DNA of 25,029 bases from a virus. The stretch lies in IMG/VR virus record IMGVR_UViG_3300012704_000289, positions 1 to 25,029 of that record, one strand, 5' to 3'. Positions 328 to 12,882 of this stretch are shown here, in pieces. A model generated the notes under the pieces. It did no database searches. It was not told where the DNA came from and was given only the letters and a program-made list of their open reading frames with translations. Both the position numbers and the translations under genes were made by a program. Each line of letters begins with the position of its first letter. Within the stretch, counting starts at the first letter, position 1.

Positions 328-1230
328 ATGGCAATTTCACGCGCACAACTCCTTAAGGAACTGCTTCCGGGTCTCAACGCCCTGTTCGGTCTGGAGTACG
401 CCTCGTACGGCGAGGAACACAAGGAACTCTTTGAGGTCGAGACCTCTGAGCGTTCGTTTGAAGAAGAGACGAAACTCTCGGGCTTCAACGCTGCTCCGGT
501 TAAGAACGAAGGTCAGGCGATTGCGTATGACAATGCGCAGGAAGCGTGGACCGCTCGTTACAACCACGAGACCATCGCTCTCGGCTTCTCCATCACGGAA
601 GAAGCGATTGAAGATAACCTGTACGACTCGCTGTCGAAGCGTTACACCAAAGCGCTCGCTCGCGCTATGGCGTACACCAAGCAGTACAAGGCCGCTTCGA
701 TCATCAACAACGGCTTTAACGCTTCCTACAATGGTGGCGACGGCGTTCCTCTGTTCTCGACGGCGCACCCGTTGGTCTCGGGCGGTACGAACAGCAACAC
801 CTTCTCGACGGCTCCGGACTTGAACGAAACGTCGCTTGAAGCGGCGACGATTCAGATCGCCGGTTGGACGGACGAGCGCGGTCTGTTGATCGCCGCGAAG
901 CCGCGCAAGTTGGTGGTGCCGCCGAACCAGATGTTCGTTGCGAAGCGTCTGCTCGACACGGAACTCCGTGTTGGCACGTCGGACAACGACATCAACGCTC
1001 TGAAGTCGATGGGCACGATCAGCGAAGGGTTCAAGGTGAACCACTTCTTGACCGACACCCACGGCTACTACATCCTCACGGACGTTCCGAACGGCCTGAA
1101 GATGTTTGAGCGTGTTGCGCTTCAGAACAGCATGGACGGTGACTTCGATACGGGCAACGTGCGGTACAAGAGCCGCGAACGTTACTCGTTCGGTTGGTCG
1201 GATCCGCTCGGCGTGTTCGGCGTGGCCTGA
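328..1230 (+). CDS. Major capsid protein (HK97-fold, Mu gpT-like)
   Basis: This 300-residue protein looks like the Mu gpT-type major head subunit that forms the icosahedral shell. Recognisable parts, in order, are an acidic N-terminal arm (ELFEVETSERSFEEE, residues 33-47), a long helix-rich segment at about 88-125 (GFSITEEAIED followed by KRYTKALARAMAYTK), the loop DGVPLFSTAHP at 138-148, the strand KLVVPP at 194-199, the TSDNDINALKSMG stretch at 217-229, and a C-terminal ARERYSF-like segment (SRERYSFGWSDP, about 283-294). Length and the order of these segments fit capsid proteins of environmental short-tailed phages. The ATG is preceded by AAGGAG at good spacing. A strong terminator follows the stop, which fits a need to set a very high copy number for this product. 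I see no separate protease or scaffold in the window; those would lie to the left. Confidence 0.9.
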   Translation: MAISRAQLLKELLPGLNALFGLEYASYGEEHKELFEVETSERSFEEETKLSGFNAAPVKNEGQAIAYDNAQEAWTARYNHETIALGFSITEEAIEDNLYDSLSKRYTKALARAMAYTKQYKAASIINNGFNASYNGGDGVPLFSTAHPLVSGGTNSNTFSTAPDLNETSLEAATIQIAGWTDERGLLIAAKPRKLVVPPNQMFVAKRLLDTELRVGTSDNDINALKSMGTISEGFKVNHFLTDTHGYYILTDVPNGLKMFERVALQNSMDGDFDTGNVRYKSRERYSFGWSDPLGVFGVA

Positions 1231-2593: not shown

Positions 2594-4858
2594 ATGGCTT
2601 TTGGTTTCGGCTTAGGGTTAACGCGTGGGGGTGGGGCCGGTGGTCTCATCCCTACGTTTAACGCGAATCTTTTGAACGGTTCGCTGCCACAGGGCGCTAC
2701 GTTCTCCCGTGGCACGGTTGCGACCCAGTACAACTCGTCTGGGCTGTTGCAGTACGCGCCGTCGAACTTGTTGTTGCAGAGTCAGGCGTTAAACCTAAGT
2801 CCTTGGATAACGCAAACAAATGTCACGCTGACTTCAACAAATACAGGCGTGGCTCCTGACGGTACGTTAACAGCAAGTTTGTGGACGTTTTCTGGTACGT
2901 CTAACAATAGCCTTTATCAAGGTTATAACACCGCAGTCAATCAAACATTGACTGGATCTGTTTATTTAAAAGGTCAGGCAGGTCAAACCATTAGTGTTTC
3001 GTGGCAACCGTTTTCAGGATCGGCGGTCTTTACGGTTTGGACGTTAACGGGAAATTGGGACAGAGTTTCTGCTACCGCTACTAACGGCTCGACAGCGGGT
3101 TCAGGCAATTTTGCGATTAGCGTAACCGCAGGACAAACTGCTACCGCAGTTTATGTCTGGGGCGCTCAGTTAGAGCAAGGGCCGAACGCTACCACCTACA
3201 CCCCCACGACCACCGCTGCCGTCTACGGCCCTCGGTTCGACTACGATCCGGGCAACGTGTTGCAGCAGAATTTGTTGTCGTACAGCGTATGGCCCGGAAC
3301 AGGTGGGCCGGGGACTTACCCGACGGGATGGGGTTACACCGGAAGTAATCCGACTGCGTGTTCGGTTGCTCAAGGTGTTGTTAACGGTGTCTCTACAGGC
3401 ATCGTCTCGTATCGTCGAGTTGGCGCAGCGGGATATGAAGGACTACAGCCTTCAATAAATATTCCTCAGAACTATGCTCCTGCATCCACGCTCACGGTTT
3501 CCGTTTGGGCGCGAATCCCTGCGGGTGTTACCGCGACGGATTTGGCGTATTACGACGGCTCAAACGTAGCAGTCATTGCTACTGCGGCGACGTTGGCGGC
3601 AGCCGGGAATAATTGGACATTTTATTCAAAAACATTTACGGCAATTGCTACGTCAGTACTTCCCGGTTGTTTTATTTCCAATAATCCAGCAGCGGGTATT
3701 GGTTCTGGCTTTGATATAGCGCAGCCGCAACTTAACTACGGTTCCACCGCTCTCCCCTACCTCGCCACCACCTCAACTCCGCAAACCGTCTGCGCCCCCA
3801 AGGGGCTGCTGATTGAGGAAGCGCGGACGAATTTGTTGACGTACAGCAATACGTTCAGCAACGCTGTGTGGGCACCGGGGACTGTAGGTGGCACGTTGAC
3901 ATCAAACTCAACAACGTCGCCTGATGGAACGGTTAATGGATCCACGCTTAACGCAACTGCTGTTATCTACGGCGGCATAGTTCTACGCAATCAGTCTTTC
4001 ACCTATGTCGGTTCTACGACTTACACGCTGTCTTGTTATGCAAAAGCGGGCACTTCTAATTTTTTAGGCTTGCGTGTTTCGGGCGATTGTTCTTCAGCAG
4101 GCGGAAGTTATCCGTACTTCAATCTTAGTACAGGCGTTGCATCAACGATTACGCCCACCGCTGGAACTTTAGTTGCCGTAGGCATGAGTAACGTGGGTAA
4201 CGGTTGGTGGAAATGCTGGGTTACGTTTACAACGTCTGCCACACCACTAAGTAACAACACCGACATAGCAATCACATTGGCAAACGGTGCTACTTCAAGT
4301 GTTTATGCGGGCACTGAAAATCTGTATGTCTACGGCGCTCAATTAGAAGCCGGAGCCTTCCCCACCTCCTACATCCCGACCACATCGGCGACGGTGACGA
4401 GGAATGCGGATGCTCTTGTTACAACTCCCGCTGCGTCTCCGTGGTTTAACGGTACGGTAGGTACGTTTGTTGTCCAAGCCGATAAATCTGCGCCGCTTTC
4501 CGGTGGAAGTATTATTGGTTACTACAACGGAACTGCATACGGATACCTAAGCGAAATTGCTGGGTCTGGCAACGGTGGAATGTTTGACACCTCGACCACG
4601 CTGCTAAGTGCAAATGCAATAAGCGCTAACACAACATTTAAATTAGGTACGTTGTACAACGACACGGGCACAACCATGTCGGTATGTTTGAATGGCGGCG
4701 CTGTGGCTTCTGCTACACACTCAAGTTCGTTTTCAACGACGACTCAAATTGGTTTCGGTGGAAACATCGGTTTTGCGTATTTGAACGGGCATCTTCGGTC
4801 CATTCAATACTTCAACTACGCGATGACTAACACGCAACTTCAGCAGGTCACGACGTGA
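2594..4858 (+). CDS. Large head-spike or tail-fibre protein with three repeated binding-type modules
   Basis: The 754-residue product opens with a Gly-rich tip and an ATFSRGTVATQYNSSGLLQ motif (35-53) typical of phage 'head spike fibre' proteins. Three related modules follow at about 58-205, 225-396 and 412-600. The clearest copies start with NLL(L/T)YS or NLLLQS, pass through APDGT or SPDGT, and end in VWGAQLEQG or VYGAQLEAG plus a TYTPTT or SYIPTT tail; the second module is more diverged. Residues about 610-754 look like a LamG/concanavalin-type domain (GTFVVQADKS, then HLRSIQYFNYAMTNTQLQQ). Such modules usually bind carbohydrate, so host-surface or matrix adhesion is likely. Module cores are visibly AT-richer (37-43% in stretches I counted) than their borders (62-68%), which suggests past module exchange. 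The stop overlaps the next start as GTGA. Confidence 0.8.
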   Translation: MAFGFGLGLTRGGGAGGLIPTFNANLLNGSLPQGATFSRGTVATQYNSSGLLQYAPSNLLLQSQALNLSPWITQTNVTLTSTNTGVAPDGTLTASLWTFSGTSNNSLYQGYNTAVNQTLTGSVYLKGQAGQTISVSWQPFSGSAVFTVWTLTGNWDRVSATATNGSTAGSGNFAISVTAGQTATAVYVWGAQLEQGPNATTYTPTTTAAVYGPRFDYDPGNVLQQNLLSYSVWPGTGGPGTYPTGWGYTGSNPTACSVAQGVVNGVSTGIVSYRRVGAAGYEGLQPSINIPQNYAPASTLTVSVWARIPAGVTATDLAYYDGSNVAVIATAATLAAAGNNWTFYSKTFTAIATSVLPGCFISNNPAAGIGSGFDIAQPQLNYGSTALPYLATTSTPQTVCAPKGLLIEEARTNLLTYSNTFSNAVWAPGTVGGTLTSNSTTSPDGTVNGSTLNATAVIYGGIVLRNQSFTYVGSTTYTLSCYAKAGTSNFLGLRVSGDCSSAGGSYPYFNLSTGVASTITPTAGTLVAVGMSNVGNGWWKCWVTFTTSATPLSNNTDIAITLANGATSSVYAGTENLYVYGAQLEAGAFPTSYIPTTSATVTRNADALVTTPAASPWFNGTVGTFVVQADKSAPLSGGSIIGYYNGTAYGYLSEIAGSGNGGMFDTSTTLLSANAISANTTFKLGTLYNDTGTTMSVCLNGGAVASATHSSSFSTTTQIGFGGNIGFAYLNGHLRSIQYFNYAMTNTQLQQVTT
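2765..4393 (+). repeat. Three diverged carbohydrate-binding-like modules inside the spike gene
   Basis: Modules span roughly 2765-3208, 3266-3781 and 3827-4393. Copies one and three share a start (NLL plus three or four residues), a PDGT box and the end motif GAQLE followed by a proline/threonine linker. Copy two keeps the length and a related end (AQPQLNYGST, LPYLATTSTP) but is otherwise diverged. The repeats are seen at protein level; DNA identity between copies is low. Confidence 0.65.
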
Positions 4859-5103
4859 GCGATCACAACGACACCATTAAGCACAGCCTAGATCTCGCTT
4901 TCGCTGCGGTAGTGGGCGGTGCGTGGCTACAGGTACTGCCGACGGTAACGACCATTGCGGGCCTCGTGTGGTACCTGCTCCGGATCTGGGAGTCGGAGAC
5001 GGTCAAGCAGTTGACGGGTAGACCCATGAGCAATCGTGACTGGATAGACACGATGCAATTCCGCAGCCTGAGAAAAAGGCAAGAAGATGCCAAGCGTAAG
5101 TAA
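4855..5103 (+). CDS. Small membrane protein, possible holin
   Basis: The 82-residue product has a short polar N-terminus, a hydrophobic stretch at about residues 12-45 that could be one long or two short membrane segments (LDLAFAAVVGGAWLQVLP and TIAGLVWYLL), and a basic tail ending KRQEDAKRK. Size and layout fit phage holins and other small lysis-associated membrane proteins, but the endolysin lies 11.7 kb away, so a virion-membrane role is also possible. The GTG start at 4855 overlaps the previous stop by four bases (GTGA), implying translational coupling. Its 3' end overlaps the next gene by 17 bases. Confidence 0.6.
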   Translation: MSDHNDTIKHSLDLAFAAVVGGAWLQVLPTVTTIAGLVWYLLRIWESETVKQLTGRPMSNRDWIDTMQFRSLRKRQEDAKRK

Positions 5104-6046
5104 GAAACAACACAACCTCATGGAGGCCGTGGCGCACAATCCCGGCTTTGCCAAAAAGGTTGGTATTCCACAGAAAGTGGGAAAGCATTTCCACGAGGCT
5201 GACAAGAAACTTAATAAAGGCGGCGACGTGAAACACGCAAATCAATTGGAAGGCAAGGCTAAGGAAACGAAGTCGATTGCCAATGAAGAAATGAAGGCTC
5301 TTAAGCGCGGTCATGCGCCTAAGAAAATTTTAGAACACGAAAAAGCGGAGCATAAGGCTATGGGCTACAAGAAAGGCGGCAAGATCGAAACCCCTAAGAA
5401 GGGTTTCGCTATGGCCGAATCGAAAGGTGGCCGCAAGCCGCCGCACAGTCACAAGGGCGAAGAAGGCGATACCAAGCTGAAGGGCTTCGGTATGGGCAAG
5501 GGCGAAGGCAAGGGTCGTAAAGTCACCAAGGCTGAAAAGCCGAAAGACGAGACCAAGACCAAAGGCTTTGCCATGAAGAAGGGCGGTCACGTGAAGCATC
5601 ACGCCAAGGGCGGCGCTGCCAAGGCTCCGCACAAGCCCAAGCCCAAGGTCGATCCGGCGGCGCTCGCTGCCATGATGGGACCTCCGGGCGGCGCTCCGGG
5701 GCCTATGTCGGCAGGTCCGGGCGGCATGCCTCCGGGAGCCGGTGCGCCTCCGGCGATGGGTGGCGCTCCGGGGATGAAGAAGGGTGGTCATATCAGCCAC
5801 CATCACCATCACCATTACGCCAAGGGCGGTCACGTCAAGAAAGAGCCGGAATCGGGGCCGCACATGGTGCGTAAAGTCCACAAGGCGGCTGAAAAGCCGC
5901 ACCGGAAGGAAGACGGCGTTGCACAGCGTGGACACACCCGTGGCAAAGAAGTAAAAATGGCCTCGGGCGGTCACGTTGGCTCGCATCCGTCTCGTCGCGC
6001 TGACGGTATCGCAGAGCGCGGTCACACCACTTGCAAGATTTGTTAA
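5087..6046 (+). CDS. Lys/Gly/His-rich basic phage protein with natural His6 run
   Basis: This 319-residue protein begins with a conserved-looking domain (SVSKKQHNLMEAVAHNP, then GIPQKVGKHFHEADKK, residues 3-41) that I recognise from other environmental phages but cannot name. The rest is low-complexity and very basic. A KGF(A/G)M box occurs at residues 105, 132 and 159, exactly 27 apart. A Pro/Gly/Met-rich segment spans about 195-228, and six consecutive histidines lie at 238-243 (bases 5798-5815). Short K/A-GG-H/K-V boxes recur (KKGGHV, AKGGHV, ASGGHV). It ends in TTCKIC. Binding of nucleic acid through lysines and of metal ions through histidines is plausible but unproven. The start at 5087 lies inside the end of the previous gene; it is chosen because the MPSVSKKQHN opening is the conserved one. 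Confidence 0.75.
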   Translation: MPSVSKKQHNLMEAVAHNPGFAKKVGIPQKVGKHFHEADKKLNKGGDVKHANQLEGKAKETKSIANEEMKALKRGHAPKKILEHEKAEHKAMGYKKGGKIETPKKGFAMAESKGGRKPPHSHKGEEGDTKLKGFGMGKGEGKGRKVTKAEKPKDETKTKGFAMKKGGHVKHHAKGGAAKAPHKPKPKVDPAALAAMMGPPGGAPGPMSAGPGGMPPGAGAPPAMGGAPGMKKGGHISHHHHHHYAKGGHVKKEPESGPHMVRKVHKAAEKPHRKEDGVAQRGHTRGKEVKMASGGHVGSHPSRRADGIAERGHTTCKIC

Positions 6047-6057
6047 GGAGTATCCAA

Positions 6058-6288
6058 ATGTCGAAGCACGGTCATCACGGTCATCTGAAACCCCATCACT
6101 CGAAGGGTCATCACGGTCCGCACTCGTCGCACGAGCATGCGACTCATGAGCATCACCCGAAGCATCATGAGCCGAAGCACCACACGCACCACATGACTCC
6201 GCACCACATCCACCACTCGCACGGTGGTCATGTGGACACGCACCACATGCATCAAGATCATGTGCGTAAGCACTTCCACGGGAAGTAA
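6058..6288 (+). CDS. Extremely histidine-rich small protein (32 His in 76 residues)
   Basis: By direct count 32 of 76 residues (42%) are histidine, spread along the whole chain in HH, HxH and HHxHH patterns, with no cysteine. Such a composition strongly suggests binding of divalent metals, with charge that switches around pH 6; a role as DNA-condensing or virion-internal protein is possible. The ATG at 6058 is chosen over an upstream in-frame TTG (6031) because AAGGAG lies at 6045-6050, just before ATG and straddling the previous stop. The gene is sandwiched between two other basic proteins that share GGHV-type boxes (SHGGHVD here), so the three probably act together. I do not know a named family. 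The antisense strand is also open here only because of the biased codons. Confidence 0.75.
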   Translation: MSKHGHHGHLKPHHSKGHHGPHSSHEHATHEHHPKHHEPKHHTHHMTPHHIHHSHGGHVDTHHMHQDHVRKHFHGK

Positions 6289-6291
6289 GTG

Positions 6292-6648
6292 ATGTTGTCT
6301 TCACGGGGCATGGGAGCCATGAATCCCAGTAAAGTCCCTACCCCCCGTACTGGGAGGAAGCCCCATGCCCCCGTGAAGGCTTGTTCTGGTGGACGTATGG
6401 CGAAGGGCGGGTTGGCTTGGACTCGCAAGGAAGGCAAGAACCCGAAAGGCGGCTTGAACGCCAAGGGTCGAGCGTCCTACAACAAAGCACACGGAGCGCA
6501 CCTCAAGGCTCCGCAACCGGAAGGTGGTCCTCGTCGGGATTCGTTCTGTGCGCGTATGAAAGGCATGAAGCGTAAACTGACGAGCAAGAAGACGGCGAAC
6601 GATCCGAACAGTCGGATCAACAAAAGCCTACGGGCGTGGAAGTGCTAA
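6292..6648 (+). CDS. Small basic phage protein, DUF6321-like
   Basis: The 118-residue product is rich in Lys, Arg and Gly. Its core has GGLNAKGRASYNKAHG, then HLKAPQPEGGPRRDSFCARM, then KKTANDPNSRINKSLRAWKC. This NAKGRxxYN...HLKAP...RRxSFCAR...RAWKC arrangement matches what I remember as the DUF6321-type family, found in many phages and without a known function. Conserved Cys residues at the centre and C-terminus could bind metal. In-frame starts are GTG 6289, ATG 6292 and ATG 6310; I choose 6292 because GGAAG at 6281-6285 is well spaced for it. The stop is immediately followed by the ATG of the adaptor gene. A KGGLA box links it to the neighbouring basic proteins. Confidence 0.75.
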   Translation: MLSSRGMGAMNPSKVPTPRTGRKPHAPVKACSGGRMAKGGLAWTRKEGKNPKGGLNAKGRASYNKAHGAHLKAPQPEGGPRRDSFCARMKGMKRKLTSKKTANDPNSRINKSLRAWKC

Positions 6649-7377
6649 ATGACCGCTACACTGTCTGGTCTTACGACGTTTAATCCAAACCTCAACGAAG
6701 TCGTTGAGGAAGCGTTTGAGCGTTGCGGATCAGAACTGCGCACGGGTTATGACCTGCGTACGGCGACCCGTAGTCTGAACCTCATGTTCATGGACTGGGC
6801 GAACCGGGGCATTAACTTGTGGACGATGGATCTGTCGTATCAGCAAGTGCTGACTCCGGGCGTAGCGACCTACACGCTCCCCGTGGATACGGTAGACCTG
6901 CTTGACCATGTGATCCGTACAGGGTCTGGGACGACGCAGCAGGACATCAACATCACGCGCATCTCCAGTTCGACCTACCTGATGATCCCAAACAAGAACG
7001 CCACAGGGCGTCCGATTCAGGTCTGGATCAATCGGTTGAGCGGACAGACAGCAGCGAGTGGTAGCACCACGACGTATCAGCCCACGATCACCGTGTGGCC
7101 TACGCCGGATACGTCAACGACGTACACGTTTGTGGCGACTCGGCTACGACGTATGCAGGACGCAGGAACTGGTACCAATATCCAAGATATGGCGTTCCGG
7201 TTCTGGCCCGCGATGTGTTCGGGGTTAGCGTATTATATGTCTATGAAGATCCCCGGCGCGGATGGTCGTGCTGCGGCTCTCAAGGCTGTGTACGAAGAAG
7301 ACTGGATGAGGGCTGCGGAAGAGGACCGCGAGAAAGCGGCGATTCGATTCGTTCCACGTGAAACATTCCTACGGTGA
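6649..7377 (+). CDS. Head-to-tail adaptor / tail accessory protein (gp4- or tubular-protein-like)
   Basis: This 242-residue protein has the usual layout of connector proteins that attach to the portal ring. The N-terminal helical part (VVEEAFERCGSELRTGYDL, then SLNLMFMDWANRGINLW) is followed by a beta-rich insert (YTLPVDTVDLLDHVIR, ISSSTYLMIPNK, then YQPTITVWPTPDTSTTYTF) and a C-terminal helical part (RFWPAMCSGLAYYMSMKIPG, then EEDWMRAAEEDREKA). The 'RG-NLW', 'LP-D-VDLLD' and 'AxGLAYYxSMK' patterns are hallmarks I recognise from short-tailed aquatic phages. It would act after DNA packaging, extending the portal channel. It starts directly after the previous stop (TAAATG). A second, unrelated-looking adaptor lies at 8229. 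Confidence 0.8.
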   Translation: MTATLSGLTTFNPNLNEVVEEAFERCGSELRTGYDLRTATRSLNLMFMDWANRGINLWTMDLSYQQVLTPGVATYTLPVDTVDLLDHVIRTGSGTTQQDINITRISSSTYLMIPNKNATGRPIQVWINRLSGQTAASGSTTTYQPTITVWPTPDTSTTYTFVATRLRRMQDAGTGTNIQDMAFRFWPAMCSGLAYYMSMKIPGADGRAAALKAVYEEDWMRAAEEDREKAAIRFVPRETFLR

Positions 7378-7380
7378 TGT

Positions 7381-7761
7381 ATGCCTAGTCGGTTTGCATC
7401 AGCCAGAAATGCGATTGCGGAATGCGACCGCTGCGGTTTCCGTTACAAACTGACGGAACTTAAAAACCTTGTCATCAAGACCAAGAACGTCAACATCAAG
7501 GTCTGCCCGACGTGTTGGGATCCAGATCATCCGCAGTTGCAGTTAGGTCTGTATCCGGTTAACGACCCGCAAGCGGTGCGGGAGCCTCGCAAGGACATCA
7601 GTTATTACACCGCGAACGGTGTGAATGGCGGTGACGGTGGTAGCCGTATCTACCAATGGGGATGGAATCCAATCGGGTATAACACATCGTTTTTGCCCGA
7701 AACGCCGAACGATTTGATCGGTGTCGGTGGCGTCGGTACGGTTACTATAGCGTTCTCCTAG
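7381..7761 (+). CDS. Small zinc-ribbon virion-region protein
   Basis: The 126-residue product has a four-cysteine knuckle pair, CDRC (C15, C18) and CPTC (C42, C45), consistent with one zinc ribbon. The N-terminal FASARNAIAECDRCGFRY pattern and the later QLQLGLYPVNDPQAVREPR stretch are conserved in aquatic short-tailed phages as I remember them. The C-terminal half contains GGSRIYQWGWNPIG and ends in hydrophobic strands (VGTVTIAF). Its place between the two adaptor genes argues for a part in tail assembly or the tail itself rather than transcription. It starts three bases after the previous stop. Its function is not established. Confidence 0.75.
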   Translation: MPSRFASARNAIAECDRCGFRYKLTELKNLVIKTKNVNIKVCPTCWDPDHPQLQLGLYPVNDPQAVREPRKDISYYTANGVNGGDGGSRIYQWGWNPIGYNTSFLPETPNDLIGVGGVGTVTIAFS

Positions 7762-9346: not shown

Positions 9347-9685
9347 ATGAGTAGTAAACGTTCAAAAGAAGGCTACTTGATGATTGATCATCGAGCGACG
9401 GAGCCTCTTAAAGACGAAATTATGGTCAAAGATGGGCTACCTCCCGGTGCCGGTAAGGGTTTGTTTGAGACAGCAACTTATACCTGTTCACACTGTGAAT
9501 ATGTAGTAGTGATGCACCCCAACCGTACTCGTGAGCGTGAGTATTGCCGAGGTTGTGATAGTTATATTTGTGACGGCTGCGGGGAATTGAAAAAACATGG
9601 TAGGCCCTGCAAAACCATGAAACAAATTGTTGATGAGGTAATGAATGCTGCTGAAAAGCAGTCGGGATTAATTATTGTTCCTTAA
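9347..9685 (+). CDS. Cysteine-rich zinc-finger-like protein
   Basis: The 112-residue product has seven cysteines in the C-terminal two thirds: C47 and C50 (CSHC), C67 and C70 (CRGC), C75 and C78 (CDGC), and C88, plus H84. This could make two zinc sites. The pattern VVVMHPNRTRERE followed by YCRGCDSYICDGC is conserved in related aquatic phages as I recall. The N-terminus is polar and not helical-membrane. By my count the gene is 147/339 GC (43%), clearly lower than adjacent genes (the row starting at base 9721 is 36/60), and it uses AT-rich codons, so it may have been acquired separately. Function unknown; assembly or host-takeover roles are both open. Confidence 0.75.
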   Translation: MSSKRSKEGYLMIDHRATEPLKDEIMVKDGLPPGAGKGLFETATYTCSHCEYVVVMHPNRTREREYCRGCDSYICDGCGELKKHGRPCKTMKQIVDEVMNAAEKQSGLIIVP

Positions 9686-10281: not shown

Positions 10282-12882
10282 GTGACCGTACAGGCGGTAT
10301 TTACCGGCTATATATCGAGTGGAGCCGGAAGTACCACTGCGGGAACCACGCTAACCGTCCTATCGGTTACGTCAGGCACGATTGCCATTGGGCAAAACGT
10401 CAGCGGCGCAGGTGTTGCTGCTGGCACTCGCATCACAGCGGGTTCAGGTACTTCTTGGACTGTCAGCGTTTCACAGACTGTGGGCGCGACGGGCGGTATT
10501 GCGTTAGCGGGTAACGTACCGTTTAACCAACCGGACTGGGTTACGCCACCTCCTCGCGTACACCCAACGTATGTTCCGCCAGACACACTGATTCAGCGGA
10601 ATATCTCGGCACCTTTTCGACAAACGGATTGGCAGAATCCCATCCTGCCGAAAGCCCCGTCGGTTGTTCATACCTTCATGGGGTCCGTATTGGCGTTGGG
10701 GTTGCTAGTCAATGCGCCTCCGAATAAGCCGAACGACTTCCCGAACCCTGTTACTCGCGTAGCCGCGCAGCAGAACGTTGGTAGCAACAACACGATTCGT
10801 TTAGTGCCGCCACCACCATTTAGGCCGGTGGATGCGCCGAATCCATTGGTGCGTGTCTATCCAACACCAGATCAGCCAGACTTCATACGTCTGCTAAGTA
10901 TTCCATCTCCTACTAGACAAGTAGATTGGCAGAACCCAAGCGTACGGGTATTCCCGCAGCCTGATGTCGTTCAGAACACGGTCATCCGTCAGGTGCCGCC
11001 TCCGCCTATTCGGCCTGTTGATGCGCCGAATCCATCAACTAAGGTTTATCCGCAACCGGATGTCGTACAGAACACGGTCATCCGTCAGGTGCCACAACCA
11101 CCTGTGCGTCCGGTTGATGCGCCGAACCCTGTCATACGGGTCTACCCACAACAAGAAGTAGGCCAAAACACCACGCTTGGTCAGGTACCGCCGCCACCGT
11201 TCAGGCCGGTGGATGCGCCGAACCCGTTAACGCGACTCGCGGCTCAACCGGTACCTCCAGATTTCTTAACTCTGCAAATTACGGCTGCGCCGACTCGTCA
11301 GGCGGATTGGCAGAACCCAAGCGTACGGGTGTTCCCGCAACCGGATGTCGTGCAGAACACGCTGTTGCGGCAAACGCCGCCGCCTCCGTTCAGACCGGTT
11401 GATGCGCCGAATCCGATAGTAAAAGTCTATCCGGTATCTGAGCAGCCAGACTTCTTGCGGGTATTGTCTGTTCCGGGGCCATTCCGTCAATTGGATTGGC
11501 AAAACCCGTCAGTCAAAGTTTATCCGCAGCCTGACGTTCTACCGAACACGACTGTTCAACAGGTGCCCCTGCCACCGTTTAGGCCAGTCGATGCACCTAA
11601 CCCTGTAACACGGCTCTATCCGATACCGGATCAACCTGACTTTTTACGGCTGCTGAATTTCGCTGCACCGTTTAATTTAACGGATCAGCCGAACCCGTCA
11701 GTCAGGGTTTACCCGCAACCGGACGCGGTTCAAAACAACACGTTGCGGCAAGTGCCCGCGCCGCCGTTCAAGCCCGTTGACCTGCCTAACCCGATCACGC
11801 GGCTCTCACCCCTGCCAGATTCGCCCGATTTCATGCGGTATCTGGCGGTACCGGGGCCGTTTAAGCAATCGGATTGGCTCAACCCGATCACGAGGGTCTA
11901 CCCGCAGCCTGACGTTCTACCTAATACAACTATTAGGCAAGTTGCTCCAGTCCTAGCCCCGTTCGTACCGGCGGATCTTCCAAACCCGCTTACACGAATT
12001 GCGGCGCAACCTATCCCGCCGGACTTCCTGACGATTCGGTCGATCTCGGCTCCGTTTAACCAGACGGACTTCCCGAATCCGGTTACACGCATTGCGGCAC
12101 AGCAGGATGTAGGCGCGAACTACACCTTGCGGCAGATGATTCCGGCAGCGCCGTTTAGCCTGAGAGATTGGGCCAATCCGGTTACGCGTAGTGCGTTGTT
12201 GCCTGATGTAGGAAATAACTACACCATTCGGCAAGCGGTACCGCTGGCTCCGTTTACTCAGACCGACTTTCCGAATCCGATTCCGCGCCTTGCGGCGCAG
12301 CAGGATGTCGGGGCGAACTACACTCTCCGACAGGTCATAGCCCCGACTCCGTTCAATCAGACCGACTGGCCCAACCCGCAGTTCCGGGCACCGCGCGGCA
12401 TCACGTTCGATCCCGCGTATCTGCAACCGCCCCCGTTGGTCATCGTACTTGTCACAGGCGTATCAGGTTTTGGTACAATCGGGCAAGTTTCGATCCAGAT
12501 CACGCAACTCTGGAATCCGGTCAATGACTCTCAGACTCCCAACTGGGGTGTACTGCCGGATACACAGACGCCGAACTGGATCCCGGTCGTTGACGCACAG
12601 ACCCCCGGATGGACTGTCGTTAGCGATCCGCAGACGCCAAACTGGACTTCAGTTAGCGTCGCGCCGACAACTGCTTGGACAACGATCAGCGACGCGCAAA
12701 CCCCGAACTGGGCTAACGTCAATGATTCGCAAACGTCGAATTGGGTTGCAGTTACAAATTCGCAGACCCCTGCGTGGACGGCGGTATTGAACACACAAGC
12801 ACCAAACTGGACTTCCGTCAGCGACTCACAGGGTTCAACATGGACTCCGATCAACGACGCCCAAAATCCCAACTGGAAGTAA
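10282..12882 (+). CDS. Repeat-built extended virion protein with two different tandem-repeat blocks
   Basis: The 866-residue product has three parts. Residues ~20-75 are one copy of the beta module shared with the next gene (GTIAIGQNVSGAGVAAGTRI, then [10 protein letters not shown]). Residues ~80-703 hold about 20 copies of a Pro-rich repeat of roughly 31 residues with core P-F-R-P-V-D-A-P-N-P-x-x-R-V-Y-P and a spacer such as QPDVVQNTVIRQV; alternating copies read DWQNPS or DAPNP. Residues 744-864 are exactly 11 copies of an 11-residue repeat, WTxVxDxQTPN. No enzyme motif is visible. A stretched proline-rich rod topped by a Trp-containing solenoid-like head would fit a fibre or ruler. Start is GTG at 10282, after AGGAG at 10271-10275. 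Similar Pro/Asp/Trp repeats exist in other phages as I remember, but function is unproven. Confidence 0.8.
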   Translation: MTVQAVFTGYISSGAGSTTAGTTLTVLSVTSGTIAIGQNVSGAGVAAGTRITAGSGTSWTVSVSQTVGATGGIALAGNVPFNQPDWVTPPPRVHPTYVPPDTLIQRNISAPFRQTDWQNPILPKAPSVVHTFMGSVLALGLLVNAPPNKPNDFPNPVTRVAAQQNVGSNNTIRLVPPPPFRPVDAPNPLVRVYPTPDQPDFIRLLSIPSPTRQVDWQNPSVRVFPQPDVVQNTVIRQVPPPPIRPVDAPNPSTKVYPQPDVVQNTVIRQVPQPPVRPVDAPNPVIRVYPQQEVGQNTTLGQVPPPPFRPVDAPNPLTRLAAQPVPPDFLTLQITAAPTRQADWQNPSVRVFPQPDVVQNTLLRQTPPPPFRPVDAPNPIVKVYPVSEQPDFLRVLSVPGPFRQLDWQNPSVKVYPQPDVLPNTTVQQVPLPPFRPVDAPNPVTRLYPIPDQPDFLRLLNFAAPFNLTDQPNPSVRVYPQPDAVQNNTLRQVPAPPFKPVDLPNPITRLSPLPDSPDFMRYLAVPGPFKQSDWLNPITRVYPQPDVLPNTTIRQVAPVLAPFVPADLPNPLTRIAAQPIPPDFLTIRSISAPFNQTDFPNPVTRIAAQQDVGANYTLRQMIPAAPFSLRDWANPVTRSALLPDVGNNYTIRQAVPLAPFTQTDFPNPIPRLAAQQDVGANYTLRQVIAPTPFNQTDWPNPQFRAPRGITFDPAYLQPPPLVIVLVTGVSGFGTIGQVSIQITQLWNPVNDSQTPNWGVLPDTQTPNWIPVVDAQTPGWTVVSDPQTPNWTSVSVAPTTAWTTISDAQTPNWANVNDSQTSNWVAVTNSQTPAWTAVLNTQAPNWTSVSDSQGSTWTPINDAQNPNWK
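10516..12392 (+). repeat. About 20 tandem proline-rich repeats (~93 bases each)
   Basis: Each unit carries (P)PF(R/N)(P/Q)(V/T)D(A/W/F)(P/Q)NP followed by R or K and a hydrophobic/Tyr/Pro end. Copies are diverged but some are nearly identical in DNA: the 26 bases at 10972-10997 recur at 11068-11093 (96 bases apart), and the 26 bases at 10924-10949 recur at 11305-11330. This indicates recent duplication within the block. Confidence 0.85.
12511..12873 (+). repeat. Eleven tandem 33-base units (WTxVxDxQTPN)
   Basis: A Trp codon starts every unit, and the spacing is exactly 33 bases from the first Trp (12511) to the last unit end (12873). Consensus is W-T-x-V-x-D-x-Q-T-P-N; unit 5 (SVAPTTA end) is the most diverged. 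The regular period suggests a small solenoid or coiled rod. Confidence 0.85.

Follow-up and report, generated by a model that had tools for sequence, protein, structure and literature searches.

A conserved histidine-rich protein family and its histidine-bearing basic neighbor in the structural gene block of uncultured phages

Why would a phage encode, among its head and tail genes, a small protein in which 32 of 76 residues are histidine? The question arises from a virus record of 25,029 bases, the whole of which was analyzed and is referred to here as the window. The gene in question, HIS, occupies a slot in the order membrane-like protein, Up, HIS, a protein that combines SRGMG and DUF6321 parts, and an SU10-type adaptor (Table 1). 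The sequence-only reading of this DNA had described 32 evenly spaced His residues and no cysteine, and the translation (MSKHGHHGHLKPHHSKGHHGPHSSHEHATHEHHPKHHEPKHHTHHMTPHHIHHSHGGHVDTHHMHQDHVRKHFHGK) agrees: His makes up 42.1% of the protein, is encoded by 20 CAC and 12 CAT codons, and recurs at intervals of 1–4 residues, never more. That this composition is far from chance is borne out by a binomial log10 P of about −30 for at least 32 His in 76 residues, taking a background His rate of 2.5% per frame. In the other frames of the 25 kb window, no stretch of 76 codons has more than 14 His, and the one that reaches this number lies over the Up gene. Indeed, HIS and Up (9.1%) are the only products of the 28 window genes with more than 7% His, the other 26 ranging from 0 to 6.5%.

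Table 1. Positions of HIS, its neighbors and associated features in the window.
Feature	Position	Strand	Remarks
Major head protein (PHROG 371)	328..1230	+	Sequence match
Small membrane/holin-like protein	4855..5103	+	Upstream flank of the slot; putative function, from sequence
Up, basic KGG-repeat protein	5087..6046	+	319 aa; 9.1% His; net charge about +38 to +40
Six-His run (GGHISHHHHHHYAKGG) in Up	5798..5815	+	5–7 His kept in most high-His phages
Ribosome-binding site AAGGAG	6045..6050	+	7 nt before the HIS ATG (6058); overlaps the Up stop codon
HIS, His-rich protein	6058..6288	+	76 aa; 32 His; 0 Cys; pI 9.6
Downstream basic protein	6289..6648	+	Net charge +25; N-terminal SRGMGAxxPSK part fused to DUF6321 (PF19846); C-terminal SLRAWKC
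SU10-type adaptor protein (PF24175)	6649..7377	+	Slot flank; source of the tree

Is HIS a real gene, and does it belong with the structural genes around it? The canonical ribosome-binding site read from the sequence is present, and AGGAG is kept ahead of the gene in all six orthologues inspected. Promoter and terminator scans of the DNA gave results near chance level. Two minus-strand ORFs cover the HIS DNA (6043-6279 and 5330-6304), but they are rejected as genes: they are shadows (CAC and CAT, the His codons, read GTG and ATG in the antisense direction), and substitutions follow the pattern of the plus-strand frame. The earlier placement of HIS within a virion operon holds, with genes for the head protein, the adaptor and the tail flanking the slot in both the window and its relatives in fixed synteny. 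Its neighbors are likewise basic, as had been claimed; Up and the SRGMG/DUF6321 protein are the only strongly basic proteins in the window.

HIS-type proteins are carried by uncultured phages of one podovirus-like group. The head protein of the window is 70% identical to those of the Planktothrix/Synechococcus phage records Pag-Yong1 and MinM2, and 62% identical to that of Pelagibacter phage HTVC023P. The records Pag-Yong1, MinM2 and Pra-JY27 name different cyanobacterial hosts, yet all are 65,014 long and give an equal head-protein score; they may be one phage, with the stated host perhaps doubtful. No host is claimed for the window, since head-protein matches in GTDB contigs fall on metagenome-assembled genomes of mixed phyla, mostly on short contigs.

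Several other genes of the region are worth describing in their own right. First, the gene at 6289-6648 has relatives in more than 500 phage records, mostly cyanophages. Its DUF6321 part is mobile: it is fused behind the SRGMG part in the window, whereas relatives (L013, L027, L048 and others) have it as a gene of its own, placed several genes upstream, and both forms occur in some loci. Second, the structural block that holds HIS also encodes two small CxxC-type, zinc-ribbon-like proteins (7381-7761 and 9347-9685); for the 7381-7761 protein, the best zinc-finger matches in Pfam are far below the cut-off. Third, an 866-aa protein (10282-12882) contains many near repeats of PPPPFRPVDAPNPxxRVYPQPDVxQNT, with an unusual Pro content and almost no His or Cys.

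How widespread is HIS, and is its histidine conserved? Searches of the tblastn type mask low-complexity sequence, and an alignment query gave only 9 loci, compared with 41 IMG/VR contigs in which the HIS core was found with a degenerate DNA pattern for HP[KE]HH[EA]PKHH. These represent ~15 distinct proteins, 14 of them C-terminal types and one found via a neighboring gene. All are 38–43% His when counted from the conserved ATG, and none has Cys; their length ranges from 54 to 79 aa, with a variable N-terminal part. In complete loci, the slot always lies between Up and the SRGMG/DUF6321 gene. Thus, the small His-rich relatives that the sequence-only reading had proposed to look for beside the same basic neighbors do exist, with their His content conserved. 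HIS is a genuine gene, and purifying selection acts on it. When the codons of 11 orthologues were aligned, dN/dS came to about 0.16 and 0.14 with the two nearest relatives and to roughly 0.06–0.3 for the other pairs computed, values that are rough in part, with some dS estimates near saturation. Sixteen His columns are invariant across these 11 orthologues, and most of them mix CAC and CAT; by a hand count, 16 of 24 His columns are invariant vs about 11 of 32 non-His columns. Orthologues in the comparisons that show this retention are only 60–70% identical. The low dN/dS, together with invariant His columns that use both codons, indicates purifying selection on the protein and on its His residues. 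HIS has no match in PHROGs, Pfam, NCBIfam or PDB, and an alignment query found none in GTDB genomes, subject to the same masking of low-complexity sequence. Cultured phage records yielded no match to a related slot protein, and the slot regions of Pag-Yong1, DSL-LC04, HTVC023P, CRP-902, QDWS535 and Caulobacter phage RW are without a comparable His-rich gene. No relevant paper turned up in literature searches for phage or virion proteins rich in His.

HIS is the extreme of a wider slot set with graded His content. In more distant phages, a different small protein, with a single Cys and the ending [DE]HVxxMCGGG, lies directly before the SRGMG gene. The signature has at least 120 matching stretches; the 99 distinct proteins among the matches listed are 8–37% His, with a median of about 19%. 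These proteins (e.g., L079, L105 and L229) resemble HIS in slot, in length and in a GGHV..H...H..HV pattern. They differ in having mostly less His, often an MKNDHPPL N-terminus, and their single Cys near a Gly-rich C-terminus, whereas HIS lacks Cys and ends in HFHGK. A profile of the high-His proteins was scored against 28 mid-set proteins, and typically 2–6 of 300 shuffles (range 0–28) scored as high. The reverse profile was weak, with 2–136 of 300 shuffles scoring as high, and pairwise z values between high-His and mid-set proteins ranged from −0.2 to 3.2. Position, pattern and this modest sequence signal suggest that the two sets likely share ancestry. In some phages, the slot holds a plain KGG protein with almost no His.

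A new finding is that Up is enriched in His alongside a HIS-type slot protein. Up has an N-terminal KKQHNLM domain (PHROG 16759/22033/25121; motif variants SKRQHR/SAKQHR occur in some high-His phages) and a C-terminal RADGIAxRGxT tail. Most high-His phages keep its run of 5–7 His in a setting like SHHHHHHYAKGG; the run is reduced to four His in some (L182) and replaced by scattered pairs and triplets in the L229 type. The run is encoded by three CACCAT repeats in the window and by mixed CAT/CAC orders elsewhere. Up is His-rich in every phage with a high-His slot protein where Up could be read: of the 87 distinct Up/slot pairs compared, 22 include a high-His slot protein, and in each of these Up contains at least 4.6% His (mean 9.2%), while Up in the remaining 65 averages 2.7% and reaches 8.1% at most. 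Across the 87 pairs, the His contents of the two proteins are correlated (Spearman 0.63), although an independent-pairs test is underpowered and the co-enrichment cannot be significant after phylogeny because the high-His state has only two independent origins, placed by the adaptor tree on supported branches. In the second lineage, made up of L229 and its near copies, the slot protein is 37% His and Up 10.7% His; in L244, a sister of that lineage, Up is 7.9% His and the slot protein only 22%. Overall, the co-enrichment favors a joint role of both proteins, and the simplest chemistry for such a role would be either metal ions bound in common or a common response to pH. As a separate observation, several consecutive small basic proteins (5087-6046 in the window, and others in loci such as L048, L053, L062, L076 and L077) share a C-terminal tail of about KKGGxxSSxSKRADGIAxRGKTRGKxC. 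Such sharing between different neighbors suggests that the tail serves as a common signal for targeting or processing.

Does the pair belong to the virus particle? The first 40–60 residues of Up also open the jumbo-phage proteins GAP32_317 and CBB_322, and the latter was detected by mass spectrometry in purified phage CBB particles with 30 unique peptides and 43.6% coverage (PMC5259590). This supports a place for Up in the virion, although the shared part covers only about 50–60 N-terminal residues and places the domain rather than the whole protein. For HIS itself, gene position and the tie to Up suggest a possible virion association. The KKQHNLM domain is widespread in jumbo phages. In phiKZ relatives it forms a separate small protein (PHIKZ165.1), and in Rak2-like phages it lies at the start of large structural proteins; gp165.1 goes unmentioned in the main text of a proteomics paper on phiKZ virions.

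What could so much histidine do there? AlphaFold gives no confident fold for HIS (pLDDT 68 and 59, pTM 0.16), only a single helix at residues ~62–73 over the conserved C-terminus. HIS is probably disordered, and the prediction is weak evidence for this because few sequences were available. The protein contains 10 HH, 9 HxH and 11 HxxxH pairs, and sites for trypsin cleavage are few. Hpn, with 28 His in 60 residues, binds Ni, Zn, Co, Cu and Bi in vitro (PMC4671568). HIS very likely binds metal in vitro as well, because proteins of Hpn-like composition bind Ni, Zn, Cu and Co. The account that we favor, while holding it as tentative, is a metal-led partnership in the virion between a disordered HIS and the virion-associated polycation Up, working by metal–His coordination, pH-dependent charge or both. 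HIS would be made together with the head and tail proteins and would act with Up, which bears its own conserved His run. The His pairs and triplets of both proteins would jointly coordinate transition-metal ions (Zn, Ni, Cu or Co) in a multivalent and reversible way. Together with Lys and the pH-dependent charge of His, this coordination would enable the two proteins to cross-link or condense, whether inside the particle, around the DNA or in the head-to-tail region. Metal binding by HIS, its pairing with Up and the location in the particle are steps that we infer. Against this partnership, other related phages manage without high His, and the high-His phages are also higher in G+C (0.52 vs 0.43), though their adaptor protein shows no His enrichment.

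A somewhat unlikely alternative makes charge the main point. HIS would then be internal and DNA-associated, a polycation that gains charge in acid through its His residues (pKa about 6) and thereby tightens the DNA in the particle or helps its release on entry, with metal binding as a side effect. The calculated charge of HIS does rise from about +5 at pH 7 to +19 at pH 6 and +33 at pH 5, and HIS sits between the strongly basic Up (net +38) and the 6289-6648 protein (+25). However, HIS should bind DNA weakly at neutral pH because its net charge there is only about +5, and the conserved HH/HxH clustering exceeds the needs of charge alone. It is unlikely, too, that the metal-led partnership amounts to a two-gene virion module based on His, gained twice in this phage group, in which a disordered, poly-His HIS and a polycation bearing poly-His jointly employ transition metals to form reversible cross-links within the packaged genome or around it. 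Less probable still is a role outside the particle, in which HIS would store or buffer Zn, Ni or Cu inside the cell in the manner of Hpn, serving, for example, the Cys-rich zinc-ribbon-like proteins at 7381-7761 and 9347-9685 or a response to metal stress. Its Hpn-like composition and the two CxxC-type proteins in its gene block would fit such a role, but HIS is fixed within the head/tail block, its His enrichment goes together with that of Up, which shares a domain with a virion protein, and no metal transporter or metalloenzyme partner is seen beside it. Finally, expansion of His with no function, by CAC/CAT slippage and exchange of KGGHV-like modules between neighbors, is very improbable and for the HIS core largely refuted: short CACCAT/CACGGTCAT repeats remain, KGGHV modules are common to the HIS and Up genes and the N-terminal length of HIS varies, but dN/dS is low, synonymous CAC/CAT swaps occur within invariant His columns of proteins well diverged from one another, and invariance is no less frequent among the His columns than among the rest.

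What are the implications of such a protein? The phage protein family that HIS represents is conserved and undescribed; its His content lies at the natural extreme, and it has a His-rich partner enriched alongside it. If HIS is in the particle, this would matter for the stability of these phages, for their response to pH and for the cycling of trace metals. Natural proteins with His runs might also be captured on nickel resin from virions in the environment, with no engineering.

How does HIS compare with known systems? First, T4-type internal head proteins and other small basic head proteins are, like HIS, small, basic and encoded with virion genes; the T4 internal proteins are not known to be His-rich. 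Second, phage tail fibers bear HxH iron-binding sites, as in T4 gp37 and Alteromonas phage R22Y gp12 (PMC11705849), and HIS is similar in being a phage protein with HxH pairs predicted to be able to bind metal. The fibers, however, have few HxH sites in a folded, trimeric, receptor-binding structure, whereas HIS has 32 His, is small, has no predicted fold and lies outside any fiber gene. If HIS is present in the particle, these phages would have metal-binding sites in much greater number than is known from tail fibers, with their few HxH sites. Third, the His-rich, Ni-binding proteins Hpn and Hpn-2 of Helicobacter pylori are close to HIS in size (60 and 66 aa vs 76), and Hpn has a similar share of His (47% vs 42%), likewise arranged in pairs and short stretches (PMC4671568). 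Unlike HIS, which is encoded in a virion block, these proteins are cellular and under the control of NikR; Hpn contains two Cys pairs and Hpn-2 a Gln-rich C-terminal half, whereas HIS has no Cys and a single Gln. HIS is not assigned to the Hpn/Hpn-2 family because it has no Pfam or NCBIfam match, and the likeness is at most a functional analogy. HIS would belong to a known kind, the His-rich metal-binding proteins, and the new element is the paired His-rich arrangement within a virion block.
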